Under the pieces are notes generated by a model. The model ran no database searches, was not told the DNA's origin, and worked only from the letters and a program-made list of their open reading frames with translations. DNA of 64,000 nt, from contig NZ_CP060298.1 of assembly GCF_014303395.1 (NCBI RefSeq), forward strand, positions 310,001 to 374,000, written 5' to 3'. Origin of the DNA: Nakamurella sp. PAMC28650 (GTDB taxonomy: Bacteria; Actinomycetota; Actinomycetes; Mycobacteriales; Nakamurellaceae). Shown one piece after another: positions 7,273 through 29,823 of the stretch; the stretch's first letter is position 1; every line of letters starts with the position of its first letter. The position numbers and the translations under genes were made by a program.

Positions 7273-8571
7273 TCAAGGGCTATTGGGAGCATTATTCTTG
7301 ATGACATTAAATGTCAACGGGAAGGCGGGGCCGATGTCGCAATGGCCAGGAATAGCACCGGCGTCCTTGAGGTTCCAGAATGTAGCCCCGACCGCGGGTA
7401 TAGTTGCTGGCTTGCTGCCGTGTTGAATGTCGTACATACGTTGGGCGTGGGTGGCCATAGCGGAGTCTGTGAGCATAGGGATCGGGTATTCAGGGTCGTC
7501 GTAGCAGGAGGACCAGGCCGCGAGATACCAGGGCTTACCTATTTGCTGGCAAAAGTTCGCGACTTTTCTCACGGCGCCGTTAAGGTCGCCTTCGGAGTTG
7601 ATTTCCAGTTCGCACAGCGGATTTGCTGGGTCCGACATGATGGTCTGCCAGGGAATTCCCAAGCTGTTTGTGCTGTTCAGGTGCGAGAAGCCGCCAGTAG
7701 TGATGAGAATGTTCGGGGCTAGCGCTTGCCACTCGGTCAGTGTTCGATGATAGAAGTTGACCATGTCAGTTGCGGTACCTGAGGTCCCGGCGGGGCACGT
7801 GCTGTCGGTTTCGCCAGGGAAACATGCCTCGCCCCAGATCTGCACCATGGCTATCGTTGGGTCGTCCTTGTAGGAGATACCAGTCACTGTATTGGTGCGA
7901 TTTGCGATAAAACGCAAATAGGGCTGCCAGTCAGTTCGGGTGGGTGTCTTGCCCGAATGTTGCAGGGACTGCGCGTAGCTACTCAGAGTGAGAATGATAT
8001 GAATTCCGTTGGCGTGGGCCATAGCGATGAACCTGTCGACGCGCGTCCAGGTCGCCAAGGACATTGCATCGGACAGATTATGGTGTTTTGTCTCGAACTC
8101 CACGACAGCAAGGGTATTGATGTGAGCGGCCATTGCGAGTGCCACCTCCGCGGCTGGCCGATCATAGGTGCCATACGCAGTCCCGCCGTGGATGCTGAAG
8201 GGGTTGGCTTCCAGGCACAGTTGGATTCCGCAGCGGTGCAAAAAAGGATCAGGCTCGGGCGGACGAATCACGACCCACCCTGTTAGCAGGACGACACCGA
8301 CCACGATGATGGAGACGAATAGTTTCCGTTCCGTCGTGAAGAATGGCCCGGGACTGTGCCTTGCGAATGCACTGATACCGACCTGGTCTGAGGTAATGCT
8401 GGCGGACCGAGGCGCCAGGTACGCCCGCCTATCCGGGAGAGTGCGGCGGGGTTGACTCACTGCAACCGTCCAGACATACGCTGCAGCACGACGGCGAAAG
8501 TGGGCGGGCGCAGGTGAAAACACGCCGGTACTGCGAGGATGGGCGTTGCCCGATACCCGCGGCCTCTCCAC
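7273..8571 (-). CDS. Membrane-anchored glycoside-hydrolase-like protein (GH5/mannanase-type barrel)
   Basis: A protein of up to 432 aa with one transmembrane segment (about residues 84-101, LFVSIIVVGVVLLTGWVV) and a large extracytoplasmic part. That part reads like a TIM-barrel endo-glycanase: LCLEANPFSIHG at the first strand, VDRFIAMAHANGIHIILTLS in the middle, and IAMVQIWGEACFPG with Glu at about residue 248 in the position of a clan-A acid/base. CELEINSEGD at about 320-330 supplies candidate nucleophile glutamates, and AVGATFWNLKD stands where the last barrel strand would be. The start is not resolved: GTG 8571 and GTG 8460 are both in frame, with no strong Shine-Dalgarno. It is the last gene of the minus-strand surface block and probably trims or binds a glycan outside the membrane. 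Family assignment is by motif feel only. Confidence 0.65.
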   Translation of the reverse strand: MERPRVSGNAHPRSTGVFSPAPAHFRRRAAAYVWTVAVSQPRRTLPDRRAYLAPRSASITSDQVGISAFARHSPGPFFTTERKLFVSIIVVGVVLLTGWVVIRPPEPDPFLHRCGIQLCLEANPFSIHGGTAYGTYDRPAAEVALAMAAHINTLAVVEFETKHHNLSDAMSLATWTRVDRFIAMAHANGIHIILTLSSYAQSLQHSGKTPTRTDWQPYLRFIANRTNTVTGISYKDDPTIAMVQIWGEACFPGETDSTCPAGTSGTATDMVNFYHRTLTEWQALAPNILITTGGFSHLNSTNSLGIPWQTIMSDPANPLCELEINSEGDLNGAVRKVANFCQQIGKPWYLAAWSSCYDDPEYPIPMLTDSAMATHAQRMYDIQHGSKPATIPAVGATFWNLKDAGAIPGHCDIGPAFPLTFNVIKNNAPNSP

Positions 8572-8875
8572 GGAAGGGATGGGGAATTGCGGGTAGCCCC
8601 CAGGAACCGTGTGAGGGTGATTCGAATCAACGCAGGGAAGAGAGCATCGAGGTGACGGGCAGATTCGGCGTGGATGAGGTGAGTGGCGCCAGTGGCCGTG
8701 CCTGCACTGCGCCGGTCACTGGCGTGATTCGCTCGATCGCATCTGTGGTTCACAACGGGTTGGCTTTCGATCGCCTGGGTCGTGATCGGCTTCCTGCGCT
8801 GCGATGGCTTCGACCTCAAGCGGTGGCGGTCGGCGGACATCGGTTTCTCCTGCCGGGGGTGAGGCGCGAGTGTGG
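8572..8875. other. Intergenic region
   Basis: About 300 bp between the secreted beta-propeller gene (stop at 8876) and the glycoside-hydrolase-like gene. It could hold a promoter for the latter, since it is the widest gap in the block. No gene or clear stem-loop is recognised. Confidence 0.45.
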
Positions 8876-11800
8876 TCAAGCTGGGGGGATGGGTGTGGTG
8901 CCGATGGTGACATTGTTGAGGGTGACAGCCGAGGCGGCACCTTGTTGGTGGGAAGTGATGGCAAAGCCCGCGAGCAGAGGTTGCGGGAGAGACAGCATCG
9001 TCGTCGAGCCCGGCACCAACGTCCACGCTGAACCATCAGGGGACGTGTAGGCGCTGAAGAGCGTCTGCGGCGCGGCACCGGCCGTGGTGTAACGGGTGAC
9101 ACGGAGGTAGGCGGGAACCGAAGCAGCCTGCAGGATCTGATTGCTGACATCGCCTGGGGTGGCCCGCCACTGGACGTCGATCCCGTGCCCGGGGGTGATG
9201 AACACCCCGTAATAAGCAGCGCCGGGGTCAGTGCCGGCTCGCAGGATCGCCCCGGCTTTAGCCCATGGATCGGTCGGTTGCTGCGTCGCCACCTGCGCGC
9301 TGACCGATCCGTCTCCGGTCAACGTCTGATTCACCAGATGGAAGGAGTCGGCGTTACCCCAGATATCCCCGCCACCACCGGTTTCGGACCAGGTGCCAGA
9401 GCTGGACAGATTGTCCTGACCGGACGGCAACGCCCCACCGACGTCCGTGCACGTCCACGAAGCCGGGCACAGTCCGGGCGGGGGGATGGGTGTGGTGCCG
9501 ATGGTGACATTGTTGAGGGTGACAGCCGAGGCGGCACCTTGTTGGTGGGAAGTGATGGCAAAGCCCGCGAGCAGAGGTTGCGGGAGAGACAGCATCGTCG
9601 TCGAGCCCGGCACCAACGTCCACGCTGAACCATCAGGGGACGTGTAGGCGCTGAAGAGCGTCTGCGGCGCGGCACCGGCCGTGGTGTAACGGGTGACACG
9701 GAGGTAGGCGGGAACCGAAGCAGCCTGCAGGATCTGATTGCTGACATCGCCTGGGGTGGCCCGCCACTGGACGTCGATCCCGTGCCCGGGGGTGATGAAC
9801 ACCCCGTAATAAGCAGCGCCGGGGTCAGTGCCGGCTCGCAGGATCGCCCCGGCTTTAGCCCATGGATCGGTCGGTTGCTGCGTCGCCACCTGCGCGCTGA
9901 CCGATCCGTCTCCGGTCAACGTCTGATTCACCAGATGGAAGGAGTCGGCGTTACCCCAGATATCCCCGCCACCACCGGTTTCGGACCAGGTGCCAGAGCT
10001 GGACAGATTGTCCTGACCGGACGGCAACGCCCCACCGACGTCCGTGCACGTCCACGAAGCCGGGCACAGTCCGGGCGGGGTTTGTGACCCGGGTAGTTGC
10101 GCGACGTTGTCGAAGGTGGCAATCGATTGCTGGGCAGAGTTGTAGGAGTCGCTGGCAATGCCGGCGACAAGGGCCCCGGGAAGGGTGAGCGCCACCGTCG
10201 AGCCCGGTACGTAGGTGAAGGTGTGGTCGTCGGTGGAGGTATAGGCGCTGAAATAGACCAGGCCGTGAGCGGTATCGGTGTAGCGGGAGGCGAGCACCCA
10301 CATGGGCGCAGCGCCGGTGGTCGTAATGCTGTTGGTTTGAGCGGCCTTGCTACTCCGCCATTGCACGGCGATGCCATTCGCGGCGGTCGCGAAGACCCCG
10401 TAGTAGGGGGCTTGCGGGTCGGTGCCCGAGCGGATCATGACGCCCGATTTCATCCAGGGGCCGCCTACCTGGGTCTGTGAGACGACACGGGCGCTGATGG
10501 TGCCATCGCCGTTGGCGGAGTTGGCCGGGTCCAGGGGGAACGGTTGAGAGGCGAACCGGAACGTGTCATAACTGGTCCAGATGTCCGACCCGCGGGCGCG
10601 CATCGTCCAGGTGCCGTTGGAGTAGAGCTGGTTTCCGGGAAGGCCGTCGACACCGATGTCGGCGCAGGAGAAGCGTTGCGCGCAGATTCCGGGTGGTGGG
10701 CTGGTGGTGGGGGTGATCTGCACGGAGTTGAATACCACCGGGGGCGCGACACGCGGCGCGGCGGCGGTAGCCGCCATCCCGGCCAAAAATTGCCCCGAGC
10801 CCATGTCGATGGCCACCGTTGATCCCAGCACCGGGGCCCAGGTGCTGCCGTCGCTGGACGTCACGGCGGAGAAGGTCGACGTTGCTGGCGTCGTGGTGGT
10901 ATCGGTGTAGCGGACGATCTGCAGGTAGGCGGGTGAGGTGGCCGTGACCACGGGGATTTTGGATCGCTGTACTACTCCGTCGTACGTGCGCCACAGGATC
11001 GTGGTGGATCCACCGGGGTTGAGGACCGCAGCGTAGAACGGCGAGGTGGCGCGGTCGTTGGCCCGCATCATGAGGCCTTCTTGTGCCGTGGGGGGCGCTC
11101 CGGGCTGGGTGACGACCTGACCGGCCAGGGTCTGGTCACCGGACACCGGGGTGAACACATAGTGCAACGAGTCGGCTGCGCCACCGATGCCGGTACCGGT
11201 GCCTGTCACCGTGTAGGAGCTTCCGGTCTGGGTGGTATCGCCGGGCGGGTTCGGGTTGCCGATGTCTTCGCAGGTCCAAGGCGAGGGGCAGGGATGGGTT
11301 GGCGCTTGTGGTGTCATCGTGGCGGTCACCGAGCCGATGGAGATGTTGGTGAATGACGCTGTTCCGGTATTGGTGGAGGAGCCGGAGTCCACGGCAAGGC
11401 CGGCCAAAGTGGTGGCGGGTAGGTCGAGGTCGGCGCTGGCCCCCGGGATGAGCTGATATTTGACTGCGTCGAAAGAAATTCCGGCACTGATGACGTTCCC
11501 GCGCCGCTGGAGCATGACGGAGACAGGTTTGTTGGCTGGATACCATTTGGTCAGTTCGATGGAGTTGCAACCGAAACAAGATCGGTACCAGATGACGACG
11601 TCGGGAGCGGGCAGGTTTTCGGTGAGGTCGTTGGGGTAGGCCAACGCAGCGAAGAACGGTGCTCCCGGGTCAGCGCTCTGCCGGATCATCACCCCGGCTT
11701 GGGGTTGGGCGTTCTGGGTGGATTGGGCGGTCACGGTGGCGCTGAGTTGGGTGTCGCCGGTGACCGGTGTGGAGATGAGCCGAAATTGGTCGGCGGTGCC

Positions 11801-13420
11801 GTGGATCGCCGACCCGGAAGCGGTGACGGTCAAGGTGCCTGCGGAGGTGTGTTCGCTGCCGGCAACTGCGGGGCTGCGGATGTCCTGGCAGGTGAAACCC
11901 TGAAGACAGTTGGGATCGGTGGGAAGGGCAGCGGGCGTCGCCAGTCCGAAGGCGTACAGATTGGTGTCGTAGTCGCCGACGTAGAATTGGCTGCGGGCGA
12001 AGGACACGGCGCCGTAGCCGGGCCCGCCCATGAGGTAGGAGTACAGCAGCTTGCCGTCAGCGGCGCTGACCGCCTCGAACGTAGAGCCCTCGACCACGCC
12101 GAGAATGCCGTTGACAAGGGCCGGGGCACCGATGACAGCCTGTTCAGTTTGTCGGGTCCAGATCAGGTGGCCGGTGGCGGGGTCCAGGGCGCTGATCGAG
12201 CCGCCGCTTCCATCGCCCGCTGCGATGTTGCTGCCACCCGCGTAATACAGCACATTATTGGCGAACACTCCTGAGGAGATACTCCCGTCTCCGCAGGTGG
12301 GGCAGTCGCCGCCGATGGCGATGGTTCGCGTCCAGATCGGTCCGGCCGTCAGGTTGTTGCGGTTGAAGGTGTAGACGATGCCGTTTTTATTGGCGACGCT
12401 GAGTAGTTTGTCGCCGTTGGTGTCGGTGACCAGAGTCGGTGTAGTGCCCCAGTCGGAGTCCTGGACGGCGGATTCGAACGGCAGTTGCCAAGAAGACTTA
12501 TAGGCCAAGGTGGCGGCATCGAGTGCGACGATCGCTTGGGACTGGGTTTGCGTGTAGTCGTTGATCGTCCCGGTGGAGACGAAGACGGTGTTGGTGGCAG
12601 TATCCAGCGTCGGTGTCGTCCAGATTCCCCCTCCCACCTGGCCGGCTGGGACCAGGCTGTAGTCGGCGTCAACCGCATGCGTGGCGAGATTCACCTTCAT
12701 CAGATGGCCAGCAACCAGGGGGTTGTCACAGTTGCTGGCCACCCCGATGTACGCGGCGCCGTTCACGATCAGCGGGCTCGACCAGTTGTAATGCGCTCCG
12801 GCCTGACTGTTGTCGCCGGTGAAGATCTTCCACAGGACCGCGCCCGTGCTGGCGCTCAGCGCATACCAGTAGGCATCCCCGCCGCCCACGTAGACCACGC
12901 CGTTGACGACCGCGGCGGCAGAGGTGATGCCGATGGTGGGCGGCTGACAGCCCGGGTCCTGGGTGAGGCCGAGGTATTGCTTCCAGATCAAGCCGCCGGT
13001 GCTGGTGTTCACCGCATATTCGTAGCCATCCCAGCTGCCGACGTAGGCGGTTGTGCCCACGACGCTGGCCGACGTGGCGATAGGTGCGCCGGTCTTGAAT
13101 TTCCACTTCACTTTCAGCGTGGCAGCGTTCGCCAGATTCAGCGTCGGGTCGACGGTGGCACCCGTGCGACTCACGTTCTGCAGTAAGGTAGGCCAGTCCT
13201 GGGCCGAAGCGGCCGAGGCGGCTGGTGCCGCGCCCAGCACCGTTGTCGCCACCGTGAACAGACCGATCATCAGAACTGCGGCGATGGCGCGCCTGCGACT
13301 GCGCGCCGCCTCTAATCGAGCAGACCGCACCCTTCTGGTCGGGCTCTGCGGCTCGGTGGTCTGCCGGTGGCGCCGTGCGGGAGATGTGGCGGGTGCGTGT
13401 CGGGTAGTCCCGGGTGTCAC
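8876..13420 (-). CDS. Secreted quinoprotein-like beta-propeller with five DUF1349/LamG-like modules
   Basis: A 1514-aa protein starting at GTG 13420, which overlaps the stop of the upstream gene by four bases (GTGA), so the two are probably translationally coupled. Residues about 45-70 are a signal peptide (AVLMIGLFTVATTVLG, then AAPAASAASA). Residues about 73-500 are an eight-strand-motif propeller of the PQQ-binding-like type (VKWKFKTGAPIATSASVVG, AYVGSWDGYEYAV, GVVYVGGGDAYWYAL). No dehydrogenase catalytic residues are evident, so it may bind rather than oxidise. Five ~200-aa modules follow, each opening with C-x4-[WF]-x-C-x-D-[IV]-G and containing G-x-D-x-F-x-[LF] and an [AK]-x-G-x-[MI]-[ILM]-R core. 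These resemble DUF1349/regulation-of-enolase-1-like concanavalin folds. The last two are identical. A cell-surface or matrix carbohydrate-binding role is likely. Confidence 0.8.
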   Translation of the reverse strand: MTPGTTRHAPATSPARRHRQTTEPQSPTRRVRSARLEAARSRRRAIAAVLMIGLFTVATTVLGAAPAASAASAQDWPTLLQNVSRTGATVDPTLNLANAATLKVKWKFKTGAPIATSASVVGTTAYVGSWDGYEYAVNTSTGGLIWKQYLGLTQDPGCQPPTIGITSAAAVVNGVVYVGGGDAYWYALSASTGAVLWKIFTGDNSQAGAHYNWSSPLIVNGAAYIGVASNCDNPLVAGHLMKVNLATHAVDADYSLVPAGQVGGGIWTTPTLDTATNTVFVSTGTINDYTQTQSQAIVALDAATLAYKSSWQLPFESAVQDSDWGTTPTLVTDTNGDKLLSVANKNGIVYTFNRNNLTAGPIWTRTIAIGGDCPTCGDGSISSGVFANNVLYYAGGSNIAAGDGSGGSISALDPATGHLIWTRQTEQAVIGAPALVNGILGVVEGSTFEAVSAADGKLLYSYLMGGPGYGAVSFARSQFYVGDYDTNLYAFGLATPAALPTDPNCLQGFTCQDIRSPAVAGSEHTSAGTLTVTASGSAIHGTADQFRLISTPVTGDTQLSATVTAQSTQNAQPQAGVMIRQSADPGAPFFAALAYPNDLTENLPAPDVVIWYRSCFGCNSIELTKWYPANKPVSVMLQRRGNVISAGISFDAVKYQLIPGASADLDLPATTLAGLAVDSGSSTNTGTASFTNISIGSVTATMTPQAPTHPCPSPWTCEDIGNPNPPGDTTQTGSSYTVTGTGTGIGGAADSLHYVFTPVSGDQTLAGQVVTQPGAPPTAQEGLMMRANDRATSPFYAAVLNPGGSTTILWRTYDGVVQRSKIPVVTATSPAYLQIVRYTDTTTTPATSTFSAVTSSDGSTWAPVLGSTVAIDMGSGQFLAGMAATAAAPRVAPPVVFNSVQITPTTSPPPGICAQRFSCADIGVDGLPGNQLYSNGTWTMRARGSDIWTSYDTFRFASQPFPLDPANSANGDGTISARVVSQTQVGGPWMKSGVMIRSGTDPQAPYYGVFATAANGIAVQWRSSKAAQTNSITTTGAAPMWVLASRYTDTAHGLVYFSAYTSTDDHTFTYVPGSTVALTLPGALVAGIASDSYNSAQQSIATFDNVAQLPGSQTPPGLCPASWTCTDVGGALPSGQDNLSSSGTWSETGGGGDIWGNADSFHLVNQTLTGDGSVSAQVATQQPTDPWAKAGAILRAGTDPGAAYYGVFITPGHGIDVQWRATPGDVSNQILQAASVPAYLRVTRYTTAGAAPQTLFSAYTSPDGSAWTLVPGSTTMLSLPQPLLAGFAITSHQQGAASAVTLNNVTIGTTPIPPPGLCPASWTCTDVGGALPSGQDNLSSSGTWSETGGGGDIWGNADSFHLVNQTLTGDGSVSAQVATQQPTDPWAKAGAILRAGTDPGAAYYGVFITPGHGIDVQWRATPGDVSNQILQAASVPAYLRVTRYTTAGAAPQTLFSAYTSPDGSAWTLVPGSTTMLSLPQPLLAGFAITSHQQGAASAVTLNNVTIGTTPIPPA
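8883..10080 (-). repeat. Tandem duplication, two identical 597-bp units
   Basis: The sequence from 8883 to 9483 recurs at an offset of 597 bp (9480-10080) with no difference seen in line-by-line comparison. The unit encodes exactly one 199-aa DUF1349-like module, so the duplication keeps frame. The three upstream modules of the same gene are clearly diverged, so this copy pair is recent. Confidence 0.95.
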
Positions 13421-15525
13421 GGGGTCGCTCCGATGGTGGCCGTCACGATACCGAGGGTGCCGGGATGGTGGGAGCTGACTGCCAGTCCCTCGAGCACGGT
13501 GGAAGGCAGGTTCATCGTGGTGGTCGAGCCGGGGATGAGGGCCCAGATGAGGCCGTCTGGTGAGGTGTAGGCGGTGAAGGTGGCGCCCGCTCGGGTCGCT
13601 TTGAGGAAGACCGGGGTGGTTCCGGTGGTGTTGGCCAGTTTGGTGGTGGTTGCGCCTTGGCTGCTGCGACTCTGAACTTTGATCCCGGTGCCCGGGGTCA
13701 CCAGTACGGCATAGTCGGGGGACCCGGGGTCGGCATCGGATCGAAACATCAGTCCGACTTTGGCCGATGAACTGGTGTTCGTTTGCGACGTGATGCGCGT
13801 CGTGATGGAACCGTCGCCGGACAGCGGCTGCCTCAGGAAGCGGAATTGATCGGCAATACCAGTGATGTCTGCGCCGGCCGCGCTGACGGTCCATGTGCCG
13901 CTGCCTGGATCGAAGGATTGGGAGCCGGTGGGGGTCGGATTTCCGATGTCCGCACACATCCACGGCGCTGGGCAGGGCACCGGTGGTGGTGGTGCAGGGG
14001 CCATGGAACTCACCGCCACATCGTCGAAAGTGGCGGTGCTCAGCTGGGTGGTGTCGCGCGATGTCACTGCCATGCCGGCCAGGACGCTGGAGCCCAGGTC
14101 CAGGGGAACGGTGGAGCCCGTCACCGGATACCAGAGGTACCCGTCGTCTGAAGCGTAGGTAGTGAGCAACCCGTTGGTGGTTGCTACCCATAGGTACGCA
14201 GGAATGATCGGGGTGGTGGTGACGGTGGCCGTCGGGCCGCCAGGGGTGGTCCGATCTTCAATGGTGATTCCCCTCCCGGCGGCGGCCGTCGCTGCGTAAT
14301 AGGGGGAACCAGGGTCAGTACCGCTGCGCAGCATCAGGCCGGCCTGACCGGAGCCGCCGCTGATGGCCGTCAGGTGCGCTCCGATACCCGCAGGATCGGG
14401 GACGCCTTTCCACAGAAAATGCAACTGGTCTGCGGTCATGCCGATGCCCGCGCCACCGCCGTGTACGGTCCATTGCCCGGTGGTGATGTCGAAGGTCTGT
14501 GTTGCGGCTGGGGTCGCCGATCCAACGTCGGCCGCCGTCCATCCGGTGGCGGTGCCGTTGGTCCACATCACTCGGGCGGGGACGGATTGGAAGCTGCCGA
14601 CGGTCGTGGCGGCCGCAATGAGCAGGTCTTCACCCTGGGATGCGCCCGTGTAGGTGTAATAGGCCAGGCCGTTACCATCAGTCGTGGCAGTGCCGGTCAG
14701 CCCGGCATCGGGCCCATAGGTCACGGTGAATCGGACCGCGGCGTTGGGGATCCCGACGCCGGCGCCGTCGAGCAGGGTCGCGGTGTGGGTGACCGGGTGT
14801 CCGGCGAAAGCCGTAGCGGATGTGGCGCCGAGGGTGAGTGTGGCGTTCTTGGTCCCGGCTGAGCCGATGGGGCGCCATTGTATCGATTCGTTCTGCTTGC
14901 AATAGCCGGCGTCGATACCGCCAGTATCCAGCACGTGGGTGCTGTCGACGAGGGTGGTGGAGGCGCCATTGATCGTCAACGTCACGGTCGGTGCGACATC
15001 GACGGGGGTGCAATGGTTGGCCGGATAGCCGCTGGTATCGAAATTGTCGTATTTAGGATTGTTGGTGCTCGGGTTTTCGGTGAGGATGGCGCTCTGCCCC
15101 GCCGGGACGATCACGGTACCCCAGAGGTTCTTGAACAGTTTCCCGCCGGTAATGCTGGCGTGGATGTCGACGGAAACATTGGTGACCGTGACCGGTGCCC
15201 CACCGTGATTGTCGAGTCGGATTGCGCCCGCGTCGTAGCAGGTGGTCAACGAACCGCAGGCGGTCTGTCCGGGTACAGGGCCGCCCAGAAAGACCGTGTT
15301 CGGTGCGCCGGCCCACGGTATCGGGAACGACGCCGGGTCAGGGGTGTTGATTTCTTTGTCCTCCGCGTATCCGACGAACACCGACAAGACTCCGGCGTTG
15401 GGGGGTGCGCTGGCGTACGCGGGCGCGGCCTTGACCGGGAGGTAACCGACGAGTGTCAAGGCGGGAATCAGAGCAACCGCCAAGACCCTGGCTCTCCCCC
15501 GCAGCGTGAGATCAGTGCGCTTCAT
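13417..15525 (-). CDS. Secreted protein with Ig-like (Big) domain and two DUF1349/LamG-like modules
   Basis: ATG 15525 is chosen because GGAG lies about 9 nt upstream and a signal peptide follows directly (KRTDLTLRGRARVLAVALIP then ALTLVGYLPVKAAPAYA). The mature protein (702 aa in total) has an N-terminal beta-rich domain (SVFVGYAEDKEINTPDP, later VTNVSVDIHAS). Next comes an Ig-like fold typical of bacterial Big domains (ATLLDGAGVGIPNAAVRFTV, ATTDGNGLAYYTYTG). Two modules of the shared DUF1349-like family follow (GWTAADVGSATPAATQTFDI and CPAPWMCADIGNPTPTGSQS). Its stop TGA overlaps the GTG of the next gene. It is probably an exported surface or matrix protein working with the neighbouring propeller proteins; no enzymatic motif is visible. 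Confidence 0.78.
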   Translation of the reverse strand: MKRTDLTLRGRARVLAVALIPALTLVGYLPVKAAPAYASAPPNAGVLSVFVGYAEDKEINTPDPASFPIPWAGAPNTVFLGGPVPGQTACGSLTTCYDAGAIRLDNHGGAPVTVTNVSVDIHASITGGKLFKNLWGTVIVPAGQSAILTENPSTNNPKYDNFDTSGYPANHCTPVDVAPTVTLTINGASTTLVDSTHVLDTGGIDAGYCKQNESIQWRPIGSAGTKNATLTLGATSATAFAGHPVTHTATLLDGAGVGIPNAAVRFTVTYGPDAGLTGTATTDGNGLAYYTYTGASQGEDLLIAAATTVGSFQSVPARVMWTNGTATGWTAADVGSATPAATQTFDITTGQWTVHGGGAGIGMTADQLHFLWKGVPDPAGIGAHLTAISGGSGQAGLMLRSGTDPGSPYYAATAAAGRGITIEDRTTPGGPTATVTTTPIIPAYLWVATTNGLLTTYASDDGYLWYPVTGSTVPLDLGSSVLAGMAVTSRDTTQLSTATFDDVAVSSMAPAPPPPVPCPAPWMCADIGNPTPTGSQSFDPGSGTWTVSAAGADITGIADQFRFLRQPLSGDGSITTRITSQTNTSSSAKVGLMFRSDADPGSPDYAVLVTPGTGIKVQSRSSQGATTTKLANTTGTTPVFLKATRAGATFTAYTSPDGLIWALIPGSTTTMNLPSTVLEGLAVSSHHPGTLGIVTATIGATP

Positions 15526-15629
15526 GAACGGCTCCGGGTATGCACCCGATCTGGGTCGAGCCAATGGCGAGGACGGCGATGGAACCGGGTTGTTCTGCGT
15601 GGATCATGGGCCCTGGACCTTTCGGGTTG

Positions 15630-18600
15630 TCATGGGCCGGAGGTGAAGCTGACGTGGTCGAACGTGGCTGTGCCCAGTACCTTGCTGTTATGTGAGCAGG
15701 TGAACAGGCCTACGGTCGCCGGGTCCGTAGTGGTCAAATTCTCGACGGCGACCTTCGTCCAGGTGAACCCGTCGCCGGAGAGGTATGCAGTGAATGTGCC
15801 GACCGCGCGGGTGAGCTTCATCCAGATATTCGGGTAGGTGTAGGTGCCGGCGCCGACCGAACCGTTGAAGTTGTACTGCACCTTCACCTGGCCGTTGGGG
15901 TCGGCGCCGATCAGCAGATAGGAGGACCCCGCTGCAGTGGACTGTTTGAACATCACGCCGGCCTTGGCGTTGGTACTGGAATCCGACAACGAGGTGAGGC
16001 GTGCGATCATGGTGCCGTTCCCGGTCATCGCCTGGTGCACGTAGTGGAACTGGTCGATGGTGCCCCAGATGTCCGCGCCCGCGCCGTTGACCGTGTAGGC
16101 GCTGCCGTCGAAGCTGGACGACCCCGCCACTGCGGGTGACCCGACATCGCTGTCGGACCAGGGCCCCGCCACTGGCGCAACCGCGGACACCTGCACGTGG
16201 TCGAACGCCGCATTACTGAATTGCCCGACGTCGTGGGAGGTGACAAACATTCCAATGGTGACAGGGCCGGTCATGGCCACGTTGACCGTGCCGACCAGCG
16301 TCCAGGTCTGCCCATCGACGGATTCCCAGGACTTGAAGGTCCCACCGGTCCGCTGCAGTTTCAACCACTTGCTCGGCGCGGCGTAACCCGGCAGGGTCGG
16401 CGCGGTGACCGATTTGGCGTTCGAGTACTGCATCCGAACACCGTGGCCCATGGTGGGTGTGACCGGTGGCAGGGGCGCCAGGCAACCATTGAGGGTGCAG
16501 CCGACACCGTTGATGTTCGGGGTTGCCGCAGCCACATCAGGGGTCACTATCGCGTCCACGAAGGTGGCGCCGGCCTGGGCGGCTTGTTTGATCATCAATC
16601 CGGCTTTGGCCCAGGGGTCGGAGTCGGTCTGGTAGCGGACCCTGGCGGTGATTGTTCCGTCACCGGGCATGATCTGATACACGTAGTGGAACTGGTCTTT
16701 GGTCCCGGTCACGTCCGAGCCTGACCCGTCGACGTAGAACGATTGATCGGTCGCGTCGTAGTCGGCGGTGCCGGCTTTCAGCGGAGCGCCGACGTCCACA
16801 CTCGTCCAGGCCGAGGGCAACGTGGAGGTCACCGGTGTGTAGTCGGCAACGTGGTTGCTGCCCTGGGCGGCGCTGGAGAACGAGTCGGTCAGTGCGCTGC
16901 CGTCGGACCAACCCTGGAACCGGTACCTGATACCGGCCAGGTTCTGCACCGGCAGCCCGGCCAGGACGTGGGTGATCCCGGACCGGTCCGTGACCGTTCG
17001 GGCACCAGTGGTGAGGAGTCCGTCGACGTAGTAGGCGGCGCCGGGGACGCTGGCGGTGGTTGACCACGAGGCCGGGGTTGGGGCGACGTCTTTGGTGACG
17101 GTGGTGGTGAGGCCCAGCGAATCGACAACGGTGAGCGTGATTCGGTAGAAGCTGGTCGGATCAGTGGAAATGTCCCGCTGCACGAGGACGCTGCCGGTCG
17201 TGCTTCCGCTGACGGGGCCGTAGAACGGGTGCGGCGCCTCGGAAAGGTAGAACGGCTGGGGGACGCCGTGGGTGATGTAGTCGACCTGCCACGTGTAAGC
17301 GCCGGGTGGCAGGGTGCCGTCGGCGGGGTCGGTGGCCGTTCCGCTGAAGGACAGCAGGTCGCCAGCGCTGTAGGTCGCCGGTGAGTTAATCGCGACGCTG
17401 GGCGGGGTGTGGCCAGCAACTACCGGTGTGGTTGTGGTCGCGGTTTGTGTTCCGCCGGTCCCGCCGGTGACCGTCAGGGTGGCGGTGTAGGCACCGGCAA
17501 CGTAGGTGTGGGTCGGGTTAGGGGTGTTGGACGGGGCTGAGCCGTCCCCGAAGTCCCAGGCATAGCCGAGCGGTTGGCCGTGCGGGTCGGTCGAACCGGC
17601 GGATGAGAATACGACAGTGAGTGGCGCGGGACCTGTCTGCGGCGTGGCGGTGGCCACGGCGGTCGGTGGAAAGGGCCCGATTGCAGTGATCTTGCTGAAG
17701 GTGCCCTCGAAGATGCTGACGAAGTACAGGGCCCCGTCTGGGCCCTGTTGCAGGTCGGCGATGGTCCCGGCGGCGCTGTCGAAGACGGTGTGCGAAATTT
17801 CCGTGCTGTAGCTGGAATCGAACTGCACCGCCTCGATATCAGTGCGGTTGTAGTCTCCGACAAAGACCACATTTCGATATTTTTCGGGGAAGGAGGTCCC
17901 CGAGTAGGCAGCGACAGCCGAGACCGCTCCATCTACGGGGAGGTGGCCGTAGGCGTACGACGGATCGAGATATCCGCAGTTGAAGCATTGACCTTCATAA
18001 AAGGGCCAGCCATAATTGCCACCCGATTGGATGGTGTCCAGCTCCTCCCAGAAGCTAGACCCGGTATCGGCGGTCATGGCGCGGCCGTCCGGCAGAAAAG
18101 TGAATCGGAACGGGTTCCGCAAGCCCAAAGCGTAGATGTAGGGCGTGGCGCCTGGTACGTTCACGAATGGGTTGTCGGCCGGGACCGTCCCGTCCAGGTT
18201 CAAGCGGAGGATCTTCCCATAGATGTTGGCGAGTGTTTGCGCGTTTGTCAACGACGGGTCATTGTCGCCGACGGACCACCACAGCTTGTCGTCCGGGCCG
18301 ACCTTCAGGTCGTTGCCGGCGTGATGCAGATTTTGAATTTGGTTGCCTCGGAGAAAAATTCGCTCACTTGCGAGGCTGGCTGTGCCATTCAGTACGGTGA
18401 ACCGCGACAATTGGGTCAACGGGTGGACAACGCCGGATGTGAACGTGACTGGTGCGGTGTAGGACACGTAGAGGTAGCCGTTGACGGCAAAGTTGGGGTC
18501 GAGAGCCATTCCCAGCAGGCCCGTCTCGCCCACATTGTTGGCGTTCAGGGACACAACCGGCGTCGGGAGCAGGAGCCCGTTTCTGTAGAGCAGGATGACG

Positions 18601-18881: not shown

Positions 18882-18934
18882 GTGCTGCCCTTTCCCGTCC
18901 TGACGATCCGTTGTTGACGTGGGGCCGTGTGCGT

Positions 18935-21900
18935 TCATCCGATGCTCACGCCTGCGTAGGTAACTTGAGACACAGTGGTGTTGTTGTGGGAGCTGACGGC
19001 CATGCCGGCGAGCAAGGGTCCGGTGCCCAAGGCGGTGACGGTCTTCGCCGAACCGATCACCGGAGTCCAGGTCACCCCGTCGGTTGAGGTGAAAGCCGTG
19101 AACGTGGTCCCCGCCCGGGTCACCCTCAGGTATGCCGGCACGGTCCCGGCCGGGGTCGCCGCATTGGCCGTACCTCCGCCCAGGGTGCTGCGGTACTGCA
19201 CCCGGATCCCGTACTGCGGGGTGATCAACGCCGCGTAATACGGTGCTGCCGGGTCTGAACTCGACCGCAGCATCACCCCGGCCTTGGCGTAGGAGTTGCT
19301 GGCCTGCTGAGCGGTGACCTGACCGCTCACCGCGCCGTCGCCGGGCAACGACTGCGACACGAAATGAAAAGCATCAGCAGTGCCGGAAATATCGGCGCCA
19401 CCGCCGGCGACCGTCCAGGTCGAGCCGGACAGAGCCTGCGACCCGGCCACCCCCACCGCACCCACATCCGCGCACCCCCACCCCACCGGACACGCCGCCG
19501 GTGCGACCGTTGGTGTGACCGCGACACCGTCGAAGGTGACCGGTGACAAGGCCGCCACATTGTGGGAGCTGACGGCCATGCCGGCGAGCAAGGGTCCGGT
19601 GCCCAAGGCGGTGACGGTCTTCGCCGAACCGATCACCGGAGTCCAGGTCACCCCGTCGGTTGAGGTGAAAGCCGTGAACGTGGTCCCCGCCCGGGTCACC
19701 CTCAGGTATGCCGGCACGGTCCCGGCCGGGGTCGCCGCATTGGCCGTACCTCCGCCCAGGGTGCTGCGGTACTGCACCCGGATCCCGTACTGCGGGGTGA
19801 TCAACGCCGCGTAATACGGTGCTGCCGGGTCTGAACTCGACCGCAGCATCACCCCGGCCTTGGCGTAGGAGTTGCTGGCCTGCTGAGCGGTGACCTGACC
19901 GCTCACCGCGCCGTCGCCGGGCAACGACTGCGACACGAAATGAAAAGCATCAGCAGTGCCGGAAATATCGGCGCCACCGCCGGCGACCGTCCAGGTCGAG
20001 CCGGACAGAGCCTGCGACCCGGCCACCCCCACCGCACCCACATCCGCGCACCCCCACCCCACCGGACACGCCGCCGGTGCGACCGTTGGTGTGACCGCGA
20101 CACCGTCGAAGGTGACCGGTGACAAGGCCGCCACATTGTGGGAGCTGACGGCCATGCCGGCGAGCAAGGGTCCGGTGCCCAAGGCGGTGACGGTCTTCGC
20201 CGAACCGATCACCGGAGTCCAGGTCACCCCGTCGGTTGAGGTGAAAGCCGTGAACGTGGTCCCCGCCCGGGTCACCCTCAGGTATGCCGGCACGGTCCCG
20301 GCCGGGGTCGCCGCATTGGCCGTACCTCCGCCCAGGGTGCTGCGGTACTGCACCCGGATCCCGTACTGCGGGGTGATCAACGCCGCGTAATACGGTGCTG
20401 CCGGGTCTGAACTCGACCGCAGCATCACCCCGGCCTTGGCGTAGGAGTTGCTGGCCTGCTGAGCGGTGACCTGACCGCTCACCGCGCCGTCGCCGGGCAA
20501 CGACTGCGACACGAAATGAAAAGCATCAGCAGTGCCGGAAATATCGGCGCCACCGCCGGCGACCGTCCAGGTCGAGCCGGACAGAGCCTGCGACCCGGCC
20601 ACCCCCACCGCACCCACATCCGCGCACCCCCACCCCACCGGACACGCCGTCGGGGCGAAGGCGTACACGGTCCCATCGACGGAGTTCGCAAAGATGACCC
20701 CGTTGGCCACGCTGGGCGGGCCATAGGTGTTGGAGGACAATGCGGTGCTGTACAGGACTGCACCGGTGCTCGCGTTGAGGACCTCCAGTGTCGGACCTGC
20801 CGCGTCGACGATCATGCCGTTGGTGTAGGCAATTGCCGGGATGACCGGGGCGGATTCACCGTGCTGCCAATTGAAGGCGCCCGTCGCGGGGTCCAGGGAG
20901 CGAACGGAGCCCTTGAAAGACGCCCCGCTGATGGTGGTTGTACCACCGGCTTGGAAGATGGCGCCGCTTGCGAAAGCACCGGAGGACACCGATCCGTCAC
21001 CACACGTCGGGCATGTGCCACCCACTGCGACGGCCGTCTGCCATAGCGGGCCGGCACTCAGATTGGCACGGTCGAAGGCATAGAACACCCCATTCTTGTT
21101 GACCGAGCCCACCATCGTCCTACCGTTGGCATCGACGAAGAGGAGGGGTGTGGTGCCGAAGTCCGAGTCGGTGACAGCCTGGGCGGCAGGCAGCTTCCAG
21201 GAATCCTTGAGGCTCAGGGAGGTGGCGTCCAGGGCGATGAGAGCCTGGGCCAGTGGTTCAGTCCCACCCTCGGTGCCGGTGGACAAGAAGATGGTGTTGG
21301 TTGTCTGGTCCAGCGTGGGCGATGTCCACACTCCGCCCCCGACCCGACCGCTGGCCACTGCGTTCCAGGTGGCGGCAACTTGGCCGGTCGTGAGATCCAC
21401 CTTCAGCAGTTGGCCGGGCACCAGTGGGCAATCACCGAGGCTGGACACGCCGATGTATGCGAACCCATTGGCCAACAGCGGACTGGCCCAGTTGTAGTGG
21501 CCGCCGCTGGGACTGTTGTCGCCGGTGAAAACCTTCCACAGGACGGCACCACTCGTGGCGTCGAGCGCGTACCAGTACTGGTCGCCACCCCCGACGTACA
21601 CCACGCCATTTTGGACGGTAGCGGAAGATGACACCCCGGCGGTGGCCGGTGAGCAGCCCGGAACGGAGGTGATACCGAGGTAGGTTTTCCATTTGAGCGC
21701 TCCGGTACCGGCGTCAATGGCGTATTCGTAACCGTCCCAGGAACCGATGTACGTTGTCCCGCCCACGACGGCCGCCGAGGTGGCGATGGGCCCTCCCGTT
21801 TTGAACCTCCACAATAACCCCAGTGAAGGGGCACTGGAAATGGTGAGACCACTGGGATCGCTACTCGCCGACGAACGCTGTGCATCGTGCAGGTACGTCG

Positions 21901-22027
21901 GCCAATCCCCGGACGGGGTAGCCGCCAACGCTAACGCCGCCGGTGCCGAGGGCGCCAACATCGAGCACAGGAACAAAGCGACAAGGAACGGATAGGACCT
22001 CGACCTCGGGCGGAATATTCTCACCAT
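18935..22027 (-). CDS. Secreted quinoprotein-like beta-propeller with three identical DUF1349/LamG-like modules
   Basis: ATG 22027 is preferred over the upstream GTG and TTG because AGGAAGG sits 8 nt before it; it yields a 1030-aa protein. The signal peptide is YPFLVALFLCSMLAPSAPAA. Residues about 40-450 form a PQQ-binding-like propeller closely resembling that of the gene at 8876-13420 (LLWRFKTGGPIATSAAVVGG, YIGSWDGYEYAIDAG, VVYVGGGDQYWYALDA), so the two are paralogues. From about residue 455 to the end are three 192-aa modules beginning CPVGWGCADVGAVGVAGSQ. The first two are identical and the third differs only in its last ~20 residues (SSHNNTTVSQVTYAGVSIG). It has no transmembrane anchor or sortase motif, so it is probably released or held by glycan binding. 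Confidence 0.82.
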   Translation of the reverse strand: MVRIFRPRSRSYPFLVALFLCSMLAPSAPAALALAATPSGDWPTYLHDAQRSSASSDPSGLTISSAPSLGLLWRFKTGGPIATSAAVVGGTTYIGSWDGYEYAIDAGTGALKWKTYLGITSVPGCSPATAGVSSSATVQNGVVYVGGGDQYWYALDATSGAVLWKVFTGDNSPSGGHYNWASPLLANGFAYIGVSSLGDCPLVPGQLLKVDLTTGQVAATWNAVASGRVGGGVWTSPTLDQTTNTIFLSTGTEGGTEPLAQALIALDATSLSLKDSWKLPAAQAVTDSDFGTTPLLFVDANGRTMVGSVNKNGVFYAFDRANLSAGPLWQTAVAVGGTCPTCGDGSVSSGAFASGAIFQAGGTTTISGASFKGSVRSLDPATGAFNWQHGESAPVIPAIAYTNGMIVDAAGPTLEVLNASTGAVLYSTALSSNTYGPPSVANGVIFANSVDGTVYAFAPTACPVGWGCADVGAVGVAGSQALSGSTWTVAGGGADISGTADAFHFVSQSLPGDGAVSGQVTAQQASNSYAKAGVMLRSSSDPAAPYYAALITPQYGIRVQYRSTLGGGTANAATPAGTVPAYLRVTRAGTTFTAFTSTDGVTWTPVIGSAKTVTALGTGPLLAGMAVSSHNVAALSPVTFDGVAVTPTVAPAACPVGWGCADVGAVGVAGSQALSGSTWTVAGGGADISGTADAFHFVSQSLPGDGAVSGQVTAQQASNSYAKAGVMLRSSSDPAAPYYAALITPQYGIRVQYRSTLGGGTANAATPAGTVPAYLRVTRAGTTFTAFTSTDGVTWTPVIGSAKTVTALGTGPLLAGMAVSSHNVAALSPVTFDGVAVTPTVAPAACPVGWGCADVGAVGVAGSQALSGSTWTVAGGGADISGTADAFHFVSQSLPGDGAVSGQVTAQQASNSYAKAGVMLRSSSDPAAPYYAALITPQYGIRVQYRSTLGGGTANAATPAGTVPAYLRVTRAGTTFTAFTSTDGVTWTPVIGSAKTVTALGTGPLLAGMAVSSHNNTTVSQVTYAGVSIG
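18984..20649 (-). repeat. Tandem triplication, 576-bp unit (2.9 copies, identical)
   Basis: The block from 18984 repeats with a 576-bp period (19560, 20136) up to 20649, with no mismatch seen by eye. Each unit encodes one 192-aa module in frame. Outside the block the sequence changes abruptly at both ends. Confidence 0.95.
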
Positions 22028-22107
22028 TGACAACACCTTCCTGCGGCCGAAGACTCCGGCGATCGGTCAAGCAGATGACACATTTAGTCTGAAGTCATGG
22101 GCTTTCG

Positions 22108-23745: not shown

Positions 23746-23869
23746 GCACATGCCCTTCCTGTACACCCGGGCCGCCGTCATGTAAGTTGGGGTCGGATCG
23801 TTGTTTAGTGGTGAGCTCTTATATTGATCGAGCACCGGTTGCCTCGCCATCCGTCCGGAGCGGTATTGA

Positions 23870-26767
23870 TTACCTCAATTCGTAGATCACCCGCGTCCCG
23901 TCGTCGAACCGGATACGATAGTTAGCCAGTTGACCCGATCGACCCAGCGCCCGCCAGACCATGTCCGTGGTATTGCGCGACAGGTAAATCCATTTGATCT
24001 GCTGCTGCGCCGGATGGGTCAGCGCGGACTGCCACAAGTGGTAGCTGCCCTCGTAGATGATTTCATCAGAGGGGACTTCAGAGGTGAAGGCGACATACTC
24101 GTTGCCGAACCCCTCCATGAGGACCCGGCCGTTGTCGTAGTCCACTCTCAGTGCCGCCGCCACCGTGGTCAGCTCAGTTCTTCCTCTGGCCCACTGCAAA
24201 GGTTCCTTCAGTGTCAGCACACCGCCACTGAGGAAAGTGCCGCTCACCACAACTCCCAGGATACCGATCGTGACGACAGTCAACGCCCGCCTGCCGGTCA
24301 GCTGCTGAGCTCCAGCAGTGTGTCGTCGTCGACTGGTGGCCATCACTATTCGCCGCAACAAGCCGTCGACAAACACCGCCGCGAAGAGCGCAATCGGGAG
24401 CAGCATCACCAGCCCGAACCTCGTGTTGTACAGATCCCCAGTGATGGCCTGGACGTGCAGCGGGCGTTGACCGCTGAACAGGGCGACGATGAAGAACGGT
24501 AGAAAGACCAGAAGAGTCAGTGGTGCGCAGTACTGGGCACGAAGCCGACCAAACCACAAATACCTGATGAGACCGCCGACTCCTAGCGCGACCACCGGCA
24601 ACCCGACTGTACCTGTCACCGCCAAAAGATACGTCTGGCTTGAGACCTTGAGATTACCCACTGCTATGTCAGAATTGCCGACCCAGAGCGACGGTTTAGA
24701 AAATTGGCCACTCTCGAAATCCGTGAAAGATCCGAAGATCGCTCGGTTCCACACCAGCCAGCCGACCACCCCCGCTGCCGCAAAAACCAGGAAGAAGAGC
24801 CAATTCGCAACGGACTGGGAACGTCGATAGGACCGCCGGATGGTGATGTACAGGACCATGACTGCGAAGCTGATGAGCAGAACCCATCCCTCGTAACGTG
24901 TCAGAGTGGCGAGCAGTATTGCGGCTGCCGCGCCCGAAAGATGCTGCCATCGCTCGCTGTGCGACCACAGAACCAGCTCGTACACTGCTACGGCCATACA
25001 TGCAAACAGTAGGGTCTCGGTCATCGGAGTGCTCTGAAGGTACAAGATGTTCGGATTCAATGCAAATATCAGTCCGGCCGCCCAACCCCCTAGGCGCGAT
25101 CCGGTCAGCACGGCGCCGGTTTTGAACAGAAAGACTGTTGCAACTACAAAAGAGATCATTGATATGGCGGCCCCGGCTATACCAGAGTAGAACAGTGAAT
25201 CATCCCAAATTAGTGGCTGTAGGAGAAGGTGCGGAAGGGGTAGCCACACAGACCCCAGCTGGGCCACCCCGGGCGTGGAACCGTCAAGCAGACGACGTGC
25301 AATCAGGAGATGTGAAATACTGTCATCGTAAGCCAGCACATCTCCACGAAGATAAAAGTACAAGAAGCTGGCGAGAGCCAGTGCCGAGGCGGCGAACGTC
25401 ACCCCCACCGCGCTGAGCGCTTGTGCCGCTGTGGCGCCGCCGCTCACCGCCGGCCGGCTCCCCCGTGTGAGTGACCTTCGAAGCCTGAAGAGGAAGGCGA
25501 GCGAACGCAGGATCACTACAAGATTTGCACCCGTCTGCTCGCCGGACAGTCTGGGATAGTGATGGACACCAACCTCCGCACACGTATAACCCGCCCTACG
25601 ACTCCGGGCCAGGAGCTCAGGCGAAACCGCAGCGTACCGCCCGTGGAGGTCGATGCTCTGCAGGACGTTTCGGTGCACTAGCTTGAATCCGCAATCCACA
25701 TCCCGTTCGCGTATCCCGACGACCAATCGAGTGAGCAAGTGCCACATCCGGCCGATGACCAGCCGCCCGACACCATCCGCGCGTCTGATGCGGAAGCCCG
25801 CAACCAGGTCGACATGTTGATAGTAGGCCGCTGCCAACAGATCCTCTACCTCCCGAGGGTCGAACTGATTGTCCGAATCGATGAACCCGATCCAGTCCCA
25901 GCCACCAGCGATTCCTGCCGCGAAGCCGGATCGGAGCGCATTCCCATAGCCAAGGTTCTGGTCGTGCGTCACTACAGTGACCGTTTGCGGATAGAGAGTG
26001 GCCAACTGCCGCGCGACGGCCCCGGTGTCGTCGGTACTTCCGTCATCGACAAGGATCACTTGGTACGGTGCCGCAATTGACTCCAGAACGTTCAAAGTCC
26101 GCTGGACCACCAACGGAATATTTTCCGATTCGTTATAACATGGAAGGAAAATTGCGACCCCGCGCCCGAGCATCTCCAGGAGACGATGACGCGGGATTGT
26201 ATCCAGAGGAGATGTTTGATGCGCCATTGCGGTGTGTCGACCTTCTGAGCCTGGCCGGTCCCAAGGGGTAGTTTGTGCTCGCTCGGTCAGTTCGGACGGT
26301 AGGTCCAATGAAACCTGTGTCACTCCTGACGCCGGGCGACTTGCGAAGATCAGCCGATCACCAACGAAAAAAGTGAGACAAGCTCCTGCGGCGATACCGC
26401 CGCCGACGGCCAGGCTGTTACCGACCTTAGGCAACAGCATCACAAAGGCCGCGGAACTGAGTCCCAACGCTACAAGTGACGATGCGTTGTAAGCCACCCA
26501 TGCCTTCAGGCTCTGGCCGTTCGCGACCATATGATGTCGCCGACTCCTCCAGGTGAAGTGCGAGCTCAAAACGAAATTTAGCTGAGACGAGACGACAAAG
26601 CTAAGGGCGAAAGATCCCGTAGGCGGCAGGGGCATTTGAAGGAATATAGTATTAAGAAAATATTGGAACGTTGCACAGGTCAAGCCAACCAAGCCAAAAC
26701 GCGACACAGTGAGAGTCGTGACACGGCGAGCACCCTGAAGCACCCCAGTCATGGGACCCCTTTTCAT
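23870..26767 (-). CDS. Three-part fusion: GtrA-like flippase domain, GT2 glycosyltransferase and GT-C membrane transferase
   Basis: A 965-aa polytopic protein. Residues about 20-145 are a GtrA-like four-helix domain (RFGLVGLTCATFQYFLNT, SSQLNFVLSSHFTW, FFVGDRLIFAS). Residues about 200-430 are a dolichyl-phosphate-mannose-synthase-type GT2 (FLPCYNESENIPLVV, VILVDDGSTDDTG, FIDSDNQFDPREVEDL, RDVDCGFKLVHR). Residues about 450-965 are a GT-C/ArnT-like multipass domain (YFYLRGDVLAYDDSISHLLI with an acidic loop, then many helices and a periplasmic tail). In other systems these three activities (making a polyprenyl-phosphate sugar, flipping it, and transferring it outside the membrane) are separate proteins. 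The start is ATG 26767; ATG 26752 has a better AAAAGGGG sequence upstream and is an alternative. It begins the minus-strand surface block, so it may glycosylate the exported proteins encoded downstream. Confidence 0.85.
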   Translation of the reverse strand: MKRGPMTGVLQGARRVTTLTVSRFGLVGLTCATFQYFLNTIFLQMPLPPTGSFALSFVVSSQLNFVLSSHFTWRSRRHHMVANGQSLKAWVAYNASSLVALGLSSAAFVMLLPKVGNSLAVGGGIAAGACLTFFVGDRLIFASRPASGVTQVSLDLPSELTERAQTTPWDRPGSEGRHTAMAHQTSPLDTIPRHRLLEMLGRGVAIFLPCYNESENIPLVVQRTLNVLESIAAPYQVILVDDGSTDDTGAVARQLATLYPQTVTVVTHDQNLGYGNALRSGFAAGIAGGWDWIGFIDSDNQFDPREVEDLLAAAYYQHVDLVAGFRIRRADGVGRLVIGRMWHLLTRLVVGIRERDVDCGFKLVHRNVLQSIDLHGRYAAVSPELLARSRRAGYTCAEVGVHHYPRLSGEQTGANLVVILRSLAFLFRLRRSLTRGSRPAVSGGATAAQALSAVGVTFAASALALASFLYFYLRGDVLAYDDSISHLLIARRLLDGSTPGVAQLGSVWLPLPHLLLQPLIWDDSLFYSGIAGAAISMISFVVATVFLFKTGAVLTGSRLGGWAAGLIFALNPNILYLQSTPMTETLLFACMAVAVYELVLWSHSERWQHLSGAAAAILLATLTRYEGWVLLISFAVMVLYITIRRSYRRSQSVANWLFFLVFAAAGVVGWLVWNRAIFGSFTDFESGQFSKPSLWVGNSDIAVGNLKVSSQTYLLAVTGTVGLPVVALGVGGLIRYLWFGRLRAQYCAPLTLLVFLPFFIVALFSGQRPLHVQAITGDLYNTRFGLVMLLPIALFAAVFVDGLLRRIVMATSRRRHTAGAQQLTGRRALTVVTIGILGVVVSGTFLSGGVLTLKEPLQWARGRTELTTVAAALRVDYDNGRVLMEGFGNEYVAFTSEVPSDEIIYEGSYHLWQSALTHPAQQQIKWIYLSRNTTDMVWRALGRSGQLANYRIRFDDGTRVIYELR

Positions 26768-28150: not shown

Positions 28151-28204
28151 ACTCATGAAGTGGTGATGCAAGCCGGATGATCGACTGACAAGGGTAAAAT
28201 GAGG

Positions 28205-29762: not shown

Positions 29763-29823
29763 CTGGTGCGTTGGGCTGGCCGGAAATTCAAACGGTTACG
29801 CGGATTCAATCGGGCCTATAACT

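Follow-up and report, generated by a model that had tools for sequence, protein, structure and literature searches.

In the window, by which we mean the whole stretch of 64,000 nucleotides from Nakamurella sp. PAMC28650 that was analysed, ORF calling finds seven genes between positions 7273 and 26767, all on the minus strand, just as an earlier note made from the letters of the sequence had counted them. Read in the direction of that strand, the block opens with two membrane glycosyltransferase genes. The first, P0007 (23870..26767; 965 aa), is a single continuous open reading frame that contains a GtrA domain (residues 23-141), a GT2 domain like those of polyprenyl-phosphate-sugar synthases (residues ~203-413) and a GT-C-like membrane part. 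The second, P0006 (22108..23850; 580 aa), is a membrane GT2 with a predicted cellulose/hyaluronan-synthase-like fold and with acidic, DAED, TED and QxxRW motifs. These are followed by four genes for putatively exported proteins that carry copies of a DUF1349 module: P0005 (18935..22036, with the ATG at 22027 as its likely start), a PQQ_2-type propeller with three modules; P0004 (15630..18938, its start overlapping the P0005 stop by 4 bases), a GSDH-type propeller with a PKD domain and two modules; P0003 (13417..15564, possibly starting at 15525), a weak Big_1 Ig-like domain with two modules; and P0002 (8876..13330), a PQQ_2-type propeller with five modules. The open frame of P0002 as listed begins too far upstream, at 14191 and so inside P0003, and the GTG at 13330 is its likely start. 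The last gene, P0001 (7273..8571), encodes a GH5-like protein in which the nucleophile glutamate is replaced.

We assign export to P0002-P0005 on the basis of signal-peptide-like N-termini, judged by eye and with no predictor. Under the listed starts, the successive gaps between the first six genes measure 19, 71, -4, 65 and 86 bases, and up to ~100 bases if the later starts are used; with these small gaps, the six genes appear to form an operon-like block. P0001 lies 304 bases past P0002, and its membership of the operon is less sure. We set it aside as a candidate core part, because copies of it occur elsewhere away from these glycosyltransferase genes, namely at 1.04 Mb and among ten neighbouring ORFs on a contig of genome G025; as a counterpoint, a paralogous locus at 3.86-3.88 Mb has a GH5-like gene of its own, and membership is uncertain.

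The earlier note described a module of ~195 aa in 5, 2, 2 and 3 copies, and exactly these twelve copies are found, with lengths of 180-216 aa. On the minus strand, the five copies in P0002 (8879..11908) lie at 11294-11908 (m1), 10688-11293 (m2), 10073-10687 (m3), 9476-10072 (m4) and 8879-9475 (m5); the two in P0003 (13420..14547) at 13981-14547 (m1) and 13420-13980 (m2); the two in P0004 (15633..16820) at 16173-16820 (m1) and 15633-16172 (m2); and the three in P0005 (18938..20647) at 20072-20647 (m1), 19496-20071 (m2) and 18938-19495 (m3). The earlier note gave C/W-x-C/S-x-D-[IV]-G as the opening of most copies; here 11 of the 12 begin with the motif [WF]-x-[CASD]-x-D-[IV]-G, and m1 of P0002 has D-I-R instead. 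An alignment of the nine distinct modules contains seven invariant columns, with 32-46% identity to its first row. When these nine are used as a profile, which is the HMM search that the earlier note had suggested, nothing in the genome (a single contig of 5,629,850 bases) apart from the same twelve stretches is matched at E<=0.01, and since the worst of the twelve has an E-value of 1.5e-70, the resemblance is not due to chance.

The Pfam model PF07081 (DUF1349) is matched above its cut-off of 32.4 by P0004 (49.3) and P0005 (49.6), and no match is listed for P0002 or P0003 at E<=0.05. Run in six frames over the genome, the same model finds two stretches only, both below the cut-off. Since PF07081 itself misses the divergent modules of P0002 and P0003, their membership of DUF1349 follows from their alignment to the other copies.

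We predicted the structure of one module, m1 of P0005, with AlphaFold, from an alignment of 25 rows (the 9 window modules and 16 from relatives). The model is an all-beta sandwich (mean pLDDT 96.3, pTM 0.92). Among solved structures it is nearest to 3o12 and 3mep (Z 20.6 and 20.5), both of which we take to be DUF1349 proteins; GH43 xylosidases follow with their C-terminal domains, at Z values reaching 18.5, and then the CBM66 structure 4azz (Z 16.3, 2.6 A over 154 residues), in a look-up where the absence of a family from the listing does not exclude that family. According to this model, the module is a concanavalin-type sandwich close to the CBM66 and GH43 accessory domains, which is the kind of fold that the earlier note had wished to see checked; the likeness to CBM66 is one of fold only, and a shared fold does not by itself prove that the modules bind sugar. 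Unlike the DUF1349, CBM66 and GH43 cases that share its fold, the module of this block occurs in two to six copies attached to propellers or to other exported parts, and it is found beside biosynthetic glycosyltransferases rather than hydrolases.

Some of the modules are nearly indistinguishable at the DNA level. In P0005, m1 and m2 are identical at 576 of 576 positions and m3 matches over 534/558; in P0002, m4 and m5 agree at 594 of 597. Tandem modules as alike as these (18938-20647 and 8879-10072) suggest very recent duplication, gene conversion or an artefact of the assembly. P0002 can also be compared with a relative at locus L149, in a MAG labelled Acidimicrobiales, where a PQQ_2 propeller with six modules, in the same module order, lies beside the glycosyltransferase genes. 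The two proteins are colinear, each module being the best match of its counterpart (48% identity for m1, 56% for m2, 58% for m3 and 63% for m4), and the last three modules of the L149 protein are 74-82% identical among themselves. This colinearity, together with the separate multiplication of the last module, suggests that the different modules keep their order and that the recent copying took place at the C-terminus.

The non-repeated parts of the exported proteins agree for the most part with what had been noticed before. Pfam matches confirm the quinoprotein-like propellers (PQQ_2, in P0002 and P0005) and the sugar-dehydrogenase-like propeller with its PKD domain (GSDH and PKD, in P0004); the Ig-like domain of P0003 is present as a Big_1 match, of 27.7 bits against a cut-off of 34.9. 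Every one of 22 aligned rows of GSDH propellers, among which one protein figures twice (as P0009 and as L129), retains the catalytic His together with Arg-Asn. At the position of Lys377 of sGDH all 22 rows have Asn or Thr, and the Arg-x-Arg found in sGDH (Arg406/Arg408) and in 2ism is replaced by Thr-x-Ala/Val in the 20 of 22 rows printed, in a residue register to which the sGDH stretch aligns with a poor score and the 2ism stretch with a good one. Arg406 presumably also holds PQQ in sGDH. It is sited in a pocket by the active site, according to the excerpted text of PMC1781467, and the roles of His144, Arg228, Asn229, Lys377 and Arg408 are given in excerpts of PMC6881789 and PMC6881810. Enzymes of family AA12 use PQQ even though they have no Lys377 (PMC6881789, in excerpt), and so the GSDH propellers of this block may still use PQQ.

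P0001 is weakly GH5-like, and both it and its relatives keep the acid/base glutamate, where we assume the identity of the nucleophile and the acid/base roles from the GH5 (mannanase-like) family. At the nucleophile site P0001 reads KPWYLAAWSS and its relative in G025 reads KPWFLSAWSS, and the paralogue P0015 reads KPWIIEEFG. Judged by these signatures, enzymatic roles for the secreted proteins are doubtful: given a GSDH propeller lacking the basic residues that anchor PQQ and a P0001 lacking its nucleophile, structural or binding roles seem as likely as catalytic ones.

The alignment of P0006 with 12 relatives keeps QRSRW, D-[AT]-E-D and E-x-x-D in 13/13 rows each, and TED in 12 of the 13, the L149 protein having AED. 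The predicted model of P0006 (mean pLDDT 77.1, with residues 1-36 and 506-580 under 50) superimposes on BcsA 9b8v with Z 30.8 (3.7 A over 399 residues) and on hyaluronan synthase 8snc with Z 25.4. The motifs, this fold and the membrane helices support the processive GT2 of the earlier note. By curated score P0006 is not a member of the BcsA family TIGR03030 (53.5 bits, cut-off 699.1), and we therefore call it, from its model, a polymer-synthase-like GT2 that resembles BcsA from outside that family. An archaeal mannosyltransferase, 6yv7, is also near (Z 27.1), so that a non-polymerising role for P0006 is possible.

In P0007, the GtrA domain scores 41.8 bits against PF04138 (cut-off 26.1), and the GT2 domain of P0007/P0008 matches the structures of ArnC, sll0501 (which we take to be GtrB) and DPM synthase, with E-values from 1.3e-19 to 1.7e-11. 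The GT-C part reaches 25.6 bits with PMT_2 (PF13231), under the cut-off of 26.1, and its Glycomyces homologue passes the cut-off at 32.3; no solved GT-C structure is among the structure matches listed. The GtrA-GT2-GT-C fusion that had been proposed is thus confirmed as one frame, weakly so by family score for GT-C. Among the best 80 of 286 relatives, GtrA was found at 22 loci, each time as an ORF of its own; its fusion to the GT2-GT-C protein in the window ties these parts to one pathway.

Conservation of the block, which the earlier note had offered as a check, was assessed by using P0007 and its Glycomyces homologue as queries against one genome for each named species (84,980 species), and the counts that follow concern the best 80 of the 286 relatives so obtained. 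A GT-C part is found at 37 of these loci (L117-L153), all of them actinobacterial, and a P0006-type GT2 adjoins it in every one (37/37; in L153, GT2 and GT-C are on separate ORFs). In 21 of the 37, the next gene on the same strand encodes a secreted propeller-DUF1349 protein. Twenty of these 21, the exception being L149 with its PQQ_2 propeller, have GSDH-PKD with 2-4 modules (L131 is cut by a contig end), in the order GtrA / GT2-GT-C / GT2 / secreted GSDH-PKD-DUF1349: eight in Glycomyces, seven in Herbidospora, three in Paractinoplanes, one in Catellatospora and one in NEAU-GS5. A rough start finder places the beginning of the secreted gene no more than ~30 bases from where the GT2 gene stops in 13 of these loci; in the remaining 8 the start that it gives is wrong or over-long. 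At two further loci, L117 and L119, the contigs end too early to tell, that of L119 after the first part of a GSDH gene. At the other 14 of the 37, the flanks that were retrieved show no DUF1349 protein (at L148 the contig ends 0.5 kb past the glycosyltransferase genes), which argues that the secreted arm is dispensable for the glycosyltransferase pair.

None of the other 43 of the best 80 loci has a P0006-type GT2, and one of them, L171, has a DUF1349 gene ~6 kb off on the opposite strand. Of the 22 loci with GtrA, 20 also have GSDH-DUF1349, one shows where a GSDH gene starts and another is truncated, and L149 is the only DUF1349 locus with no detected GtrA. On the tree of GT2-GT-C proteins, where the branch of the window is long (0.95) and its placement not firm, the DUF1349 label needs four changes, and at least two by the starred branches, with the cut contigs L117 and L119 counted either way.

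We also asked the question in reverse, among 394 genomes of the class, which are related to each other and yield a small sample. The P0004/P0009 profile has matches at E<=1e-60 in nineteen of them, one being the host, and matches to the module part are confined to four (G000, G449, G420 and G381). A full-length GT2-GT-C protein is encoded, at E<=1e-200, in five genomes, which are these four and G388. In G420 and G381 the glycosyltransferase genes and the secreted gene fall on separate contigs, and the secreted gene takes up its whole contig or sits at its end, which fits the same gene order broken in assembly. We conclude that GT2-GT-C, GT2 and secreted propeller-DUF1349 genes are kept in a fixed order in many distant actinobacteria.

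The modules are not restricted to this cassette. An order-wide search finds them in 30 of 200 genomes, host included, at E<=1e-4, and among loci fetched for 12 of the other 29, G105, whose contig 22 overlaps the Glycomyces harbinensis record L129, alone has the glycosyltransferase genes (11/12 are without them). Of the genus, 16 genomes were listed; none has a module match as strong as those of the block, and four have weaker ones (best E 3.3e-29). One of these four, G032, encodes a GSDH-PKD-DUF1349 protein with no such glycosyltransferases in the 11.9 kb read; G003 encodes a large GSDH-PKD protein with none in 20 kb. The corresponding open frames are very large (L055 6111-11933 in G032, with two modules, and L255 7883-14725 in G003). 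Thus, as G032 and the 11 of 12 loci demonstrate, DUF1349 proteins, and even GSDH-PKD-DUF1349 proteins, exist outside the cassette.

The host genome has a second locus, at 3.86-3.88 Mb, which from its sequence is a like layout with different lectin-type domains. It encodes a GT2-GtrA protein, a homologue of P0006 (47%), a protein resembling GT-C (19.8 bits with PMT_2, below cut-off), a secreted protein of 1848 aa and the GH5-like P0015, which retains its nucleophile. The 1848-aa protein (L064 2511-8057) combines a quinoprotein-like propeller, ASH/HYDIN Ig domains, two L-type-lectin-like stretches (score 56.9, under the Pfam cut-off of 78.3) and four Calx-beta stretches. GT-C relatives of the second-locus type occur in 13 other genomes of the order (14/200 with the host), with GT2 in the same fetched locus in 11 of the 13 and ~2 kb off by coordinates in the other two. 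No L064-type propeller-lectin protein was found beside these pairs in the 13 genomes, in a search that reached ~10 kb on each side in G026, G034, G074, G088 and G154, and ~1.5 kb or a short contig in the other eight.

The reading that we favour, tentatively and at close to an even chance, is that the block is a surface-glycan operon, composed of a synthase, a decorating glycosyltransferase system and lectin-like exported binders. It is supported by the synteny of 21 loci, the reverse test, the P0007 fusion, the folds, the second locus and the small gaps, and it is weakened by the 14/37 loci without a DUF1349 protein, the modules found away from glycosyltransferases, the result for the genus, the PMT_2 score under the cut-off and the nearness of 6yv7. 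Under this reading, to judge from fold and motifs, P0006 would make and extrude a linear glycan; from the roles of their families, the GT2 domain of P0007 would load a sugar onto polyprenyl phosphate, its GtrA domain would flip the lipid-sugar over, and its GT-C part would transfer the sugar outside the membrane, most likely as side groups on the P0006 glycan. The exported propeller proteins may then use their several concanavalin-type modules to bind this glycan, acting as cross-linkers or as partners of the synthase at the surface. Neither of the two outcomes that the earlier note had named as refuting arose, although the adjacency was not seen in 14 of 37 loci, and we count the proposal as supported in part. 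Of the earlier proposal, an exopolysaccharide or surface matrix with its own binding and processing proteins, the matrix and binding parts gain from the synthase-like GT2, the concanavalin-like fold and the adjacency to glycosyltransferases in relatives, and the processing part is weakened by the GSDH basic residues and the P0001 nucleophile.

Two kinds of known system are close to the block, and we suggest by analogy that CslA-GlxA of Streptomyces may be the nearest functional model and the GtrA/GT-C systems the nearest family model. In excerpts of PMC11022532, CslA-GlxA-CslZ pairs a BcsA-like GT2 with the gene of an extracellular propeller protein, required for synthase activity, and has a glucanase gene downstream. 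The present block differs in that its propellers are of PQQ_2 and GSDH type with lectin-like modules, its GH5-like P0001 lacks the nucleophile, and transmembrane glycosylation parts are added; among the matches at E<=0.05 listed for its seven gene products, there is no radical copper oxidase family. The three-component transmembrane glycosylation systems (GtrA/GtrB/GT-C; PMC8035078 and PMC11127046, both in excerpt) consist of a lipid-sugar synthase, a GtrA flippase and a GT-C; the first two are also present in P0007, with the GT-C-like part as the probable third, and the flippase step of these systems is said in the latter source to be without direct experimental evidence. Unlike them, P0007 is one polypeptide, and it is joined by a synthase-type GT2 and by secreted module proteins. 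The gsf cluster of Actinoplanes missouriensis is likewise a GtrA-linked glycosyltransferase cluster in an actinomycete, and necessary for normal sporangia; it differs in being a separate cluster, with a membrane glycosyltransferase stated not to be GT-C and, in the main text of its paper, no mention of DUF1349 or PKD (PMC13390465). The titles and opening abstract lines returned by searches on DUF1349, GtrA/GT-C, sugar dehydrogenase-PKD and Herbidospora EPS, which cover subscription journals thinly, leave the cluster undescribed: the parts are known, and no paper that we found describes their combination.

A more specific version of the surface-glycan reading, which we consider possible and rather improbable, is that a one-chain decorator and a synthase work with propellers that, like GlxA with CslA, take up a place where the polymer leaves the synthase, that the lectin arms of these propellers are exchangeable (DUF1349 here, L-type-lectin-like and Calx-beta at the second locus), that the recently multiplied terminal lectin modules tune avidity by their copy number, and that the whole is an undescribed actinobacterial machine. 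If the propellers are indeed partners of the synthase, CslA-GlxA would become one case of a broader design. Whichever version holds, the block offers a concrete, widely kept set of genes in which an actinobacterial surface polymer could be sought, it links DUF1349, a family of unknown function, to biosynthesis, and in P0007 it provides what is probably a natural one-chain version of a three-component glycosylation system.

The alternative that survives best, though we think it unlikely, is protein glycosylation, in which P0007, with its PMT-like GT-C, and P0006 glycosylate the secreted propeller proteins, so that these are substrates rather than binders of a polymer. The placement of the secreted genes directly after the glycosyltransferase genes is as this would have it, as is the PMT_2 match in the GT-C part, under the cut-off in P0007 and over it in Glycomyces; but the fold of P0006 is nearest to that of a polymer synthase, and the glycosyltransferase pair occurs without a secreted protein in 14/37 loci. 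Less probable again is scavenging, where the secreted and GH5-like proteins capture or degrade foreign polysaccharide and the glycosyltransferase genes serve a separate function. Synteny with synthase-type glycosyltransferases in distant relatives speaks against such a separation, as do the missing nucleophile of P0001 and secreted proteins that match no listed glycoside hydrolase or lyase family, despite modules that resemble GH43 accessory domains, GH123 and GH95 genes within the same window, and module proteins that lack these glycosyltransferases in 11/12 other loci of the order. That a repeat-rich secreted family lies beside glycosyltransferase genes merely by chance is very improbable, even with repeated or mobile elements on both borders and no such block in the listed genomes of the genus, because it is contradicted by adjacency in 21/37 loci from several families and an Acidimicrobiales-labelled MAG.

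A search of a plasmid collection gave no DNA match for one neighbouring stretch, and relatives of P0006 in 11 records, none with a single place covering 80% of the query. The repeated and mobile elements at the borders lie outside the system. On one side, the block is bordered by a repeated element of 1.57 kb (5369..6939), with a 99.3% second copy at 1.04 Mb (L208 13230-14800) and a 433-aa ORF that has no Pfam match at E<=0.001; it is perhaps an unclassified insertion sequence. On the other side lie an IS66-family element (28200-29764) and an ISL3-family element (29824-31204), the latter with ~99% identical copies at L208 9233-10613 and 11852-13232. The second P0001 gene at 1.04 Mb, ~93% identical, is split by one such ISL3-family copy. 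Further out, a GH123 gene (2784-4463) and a GH95 gene (36661-39006) flank the block on either side, and the same window holds an aconitase X gene (40950-42350) and an oligopeptide-type ABC transporter set (43087-50630).
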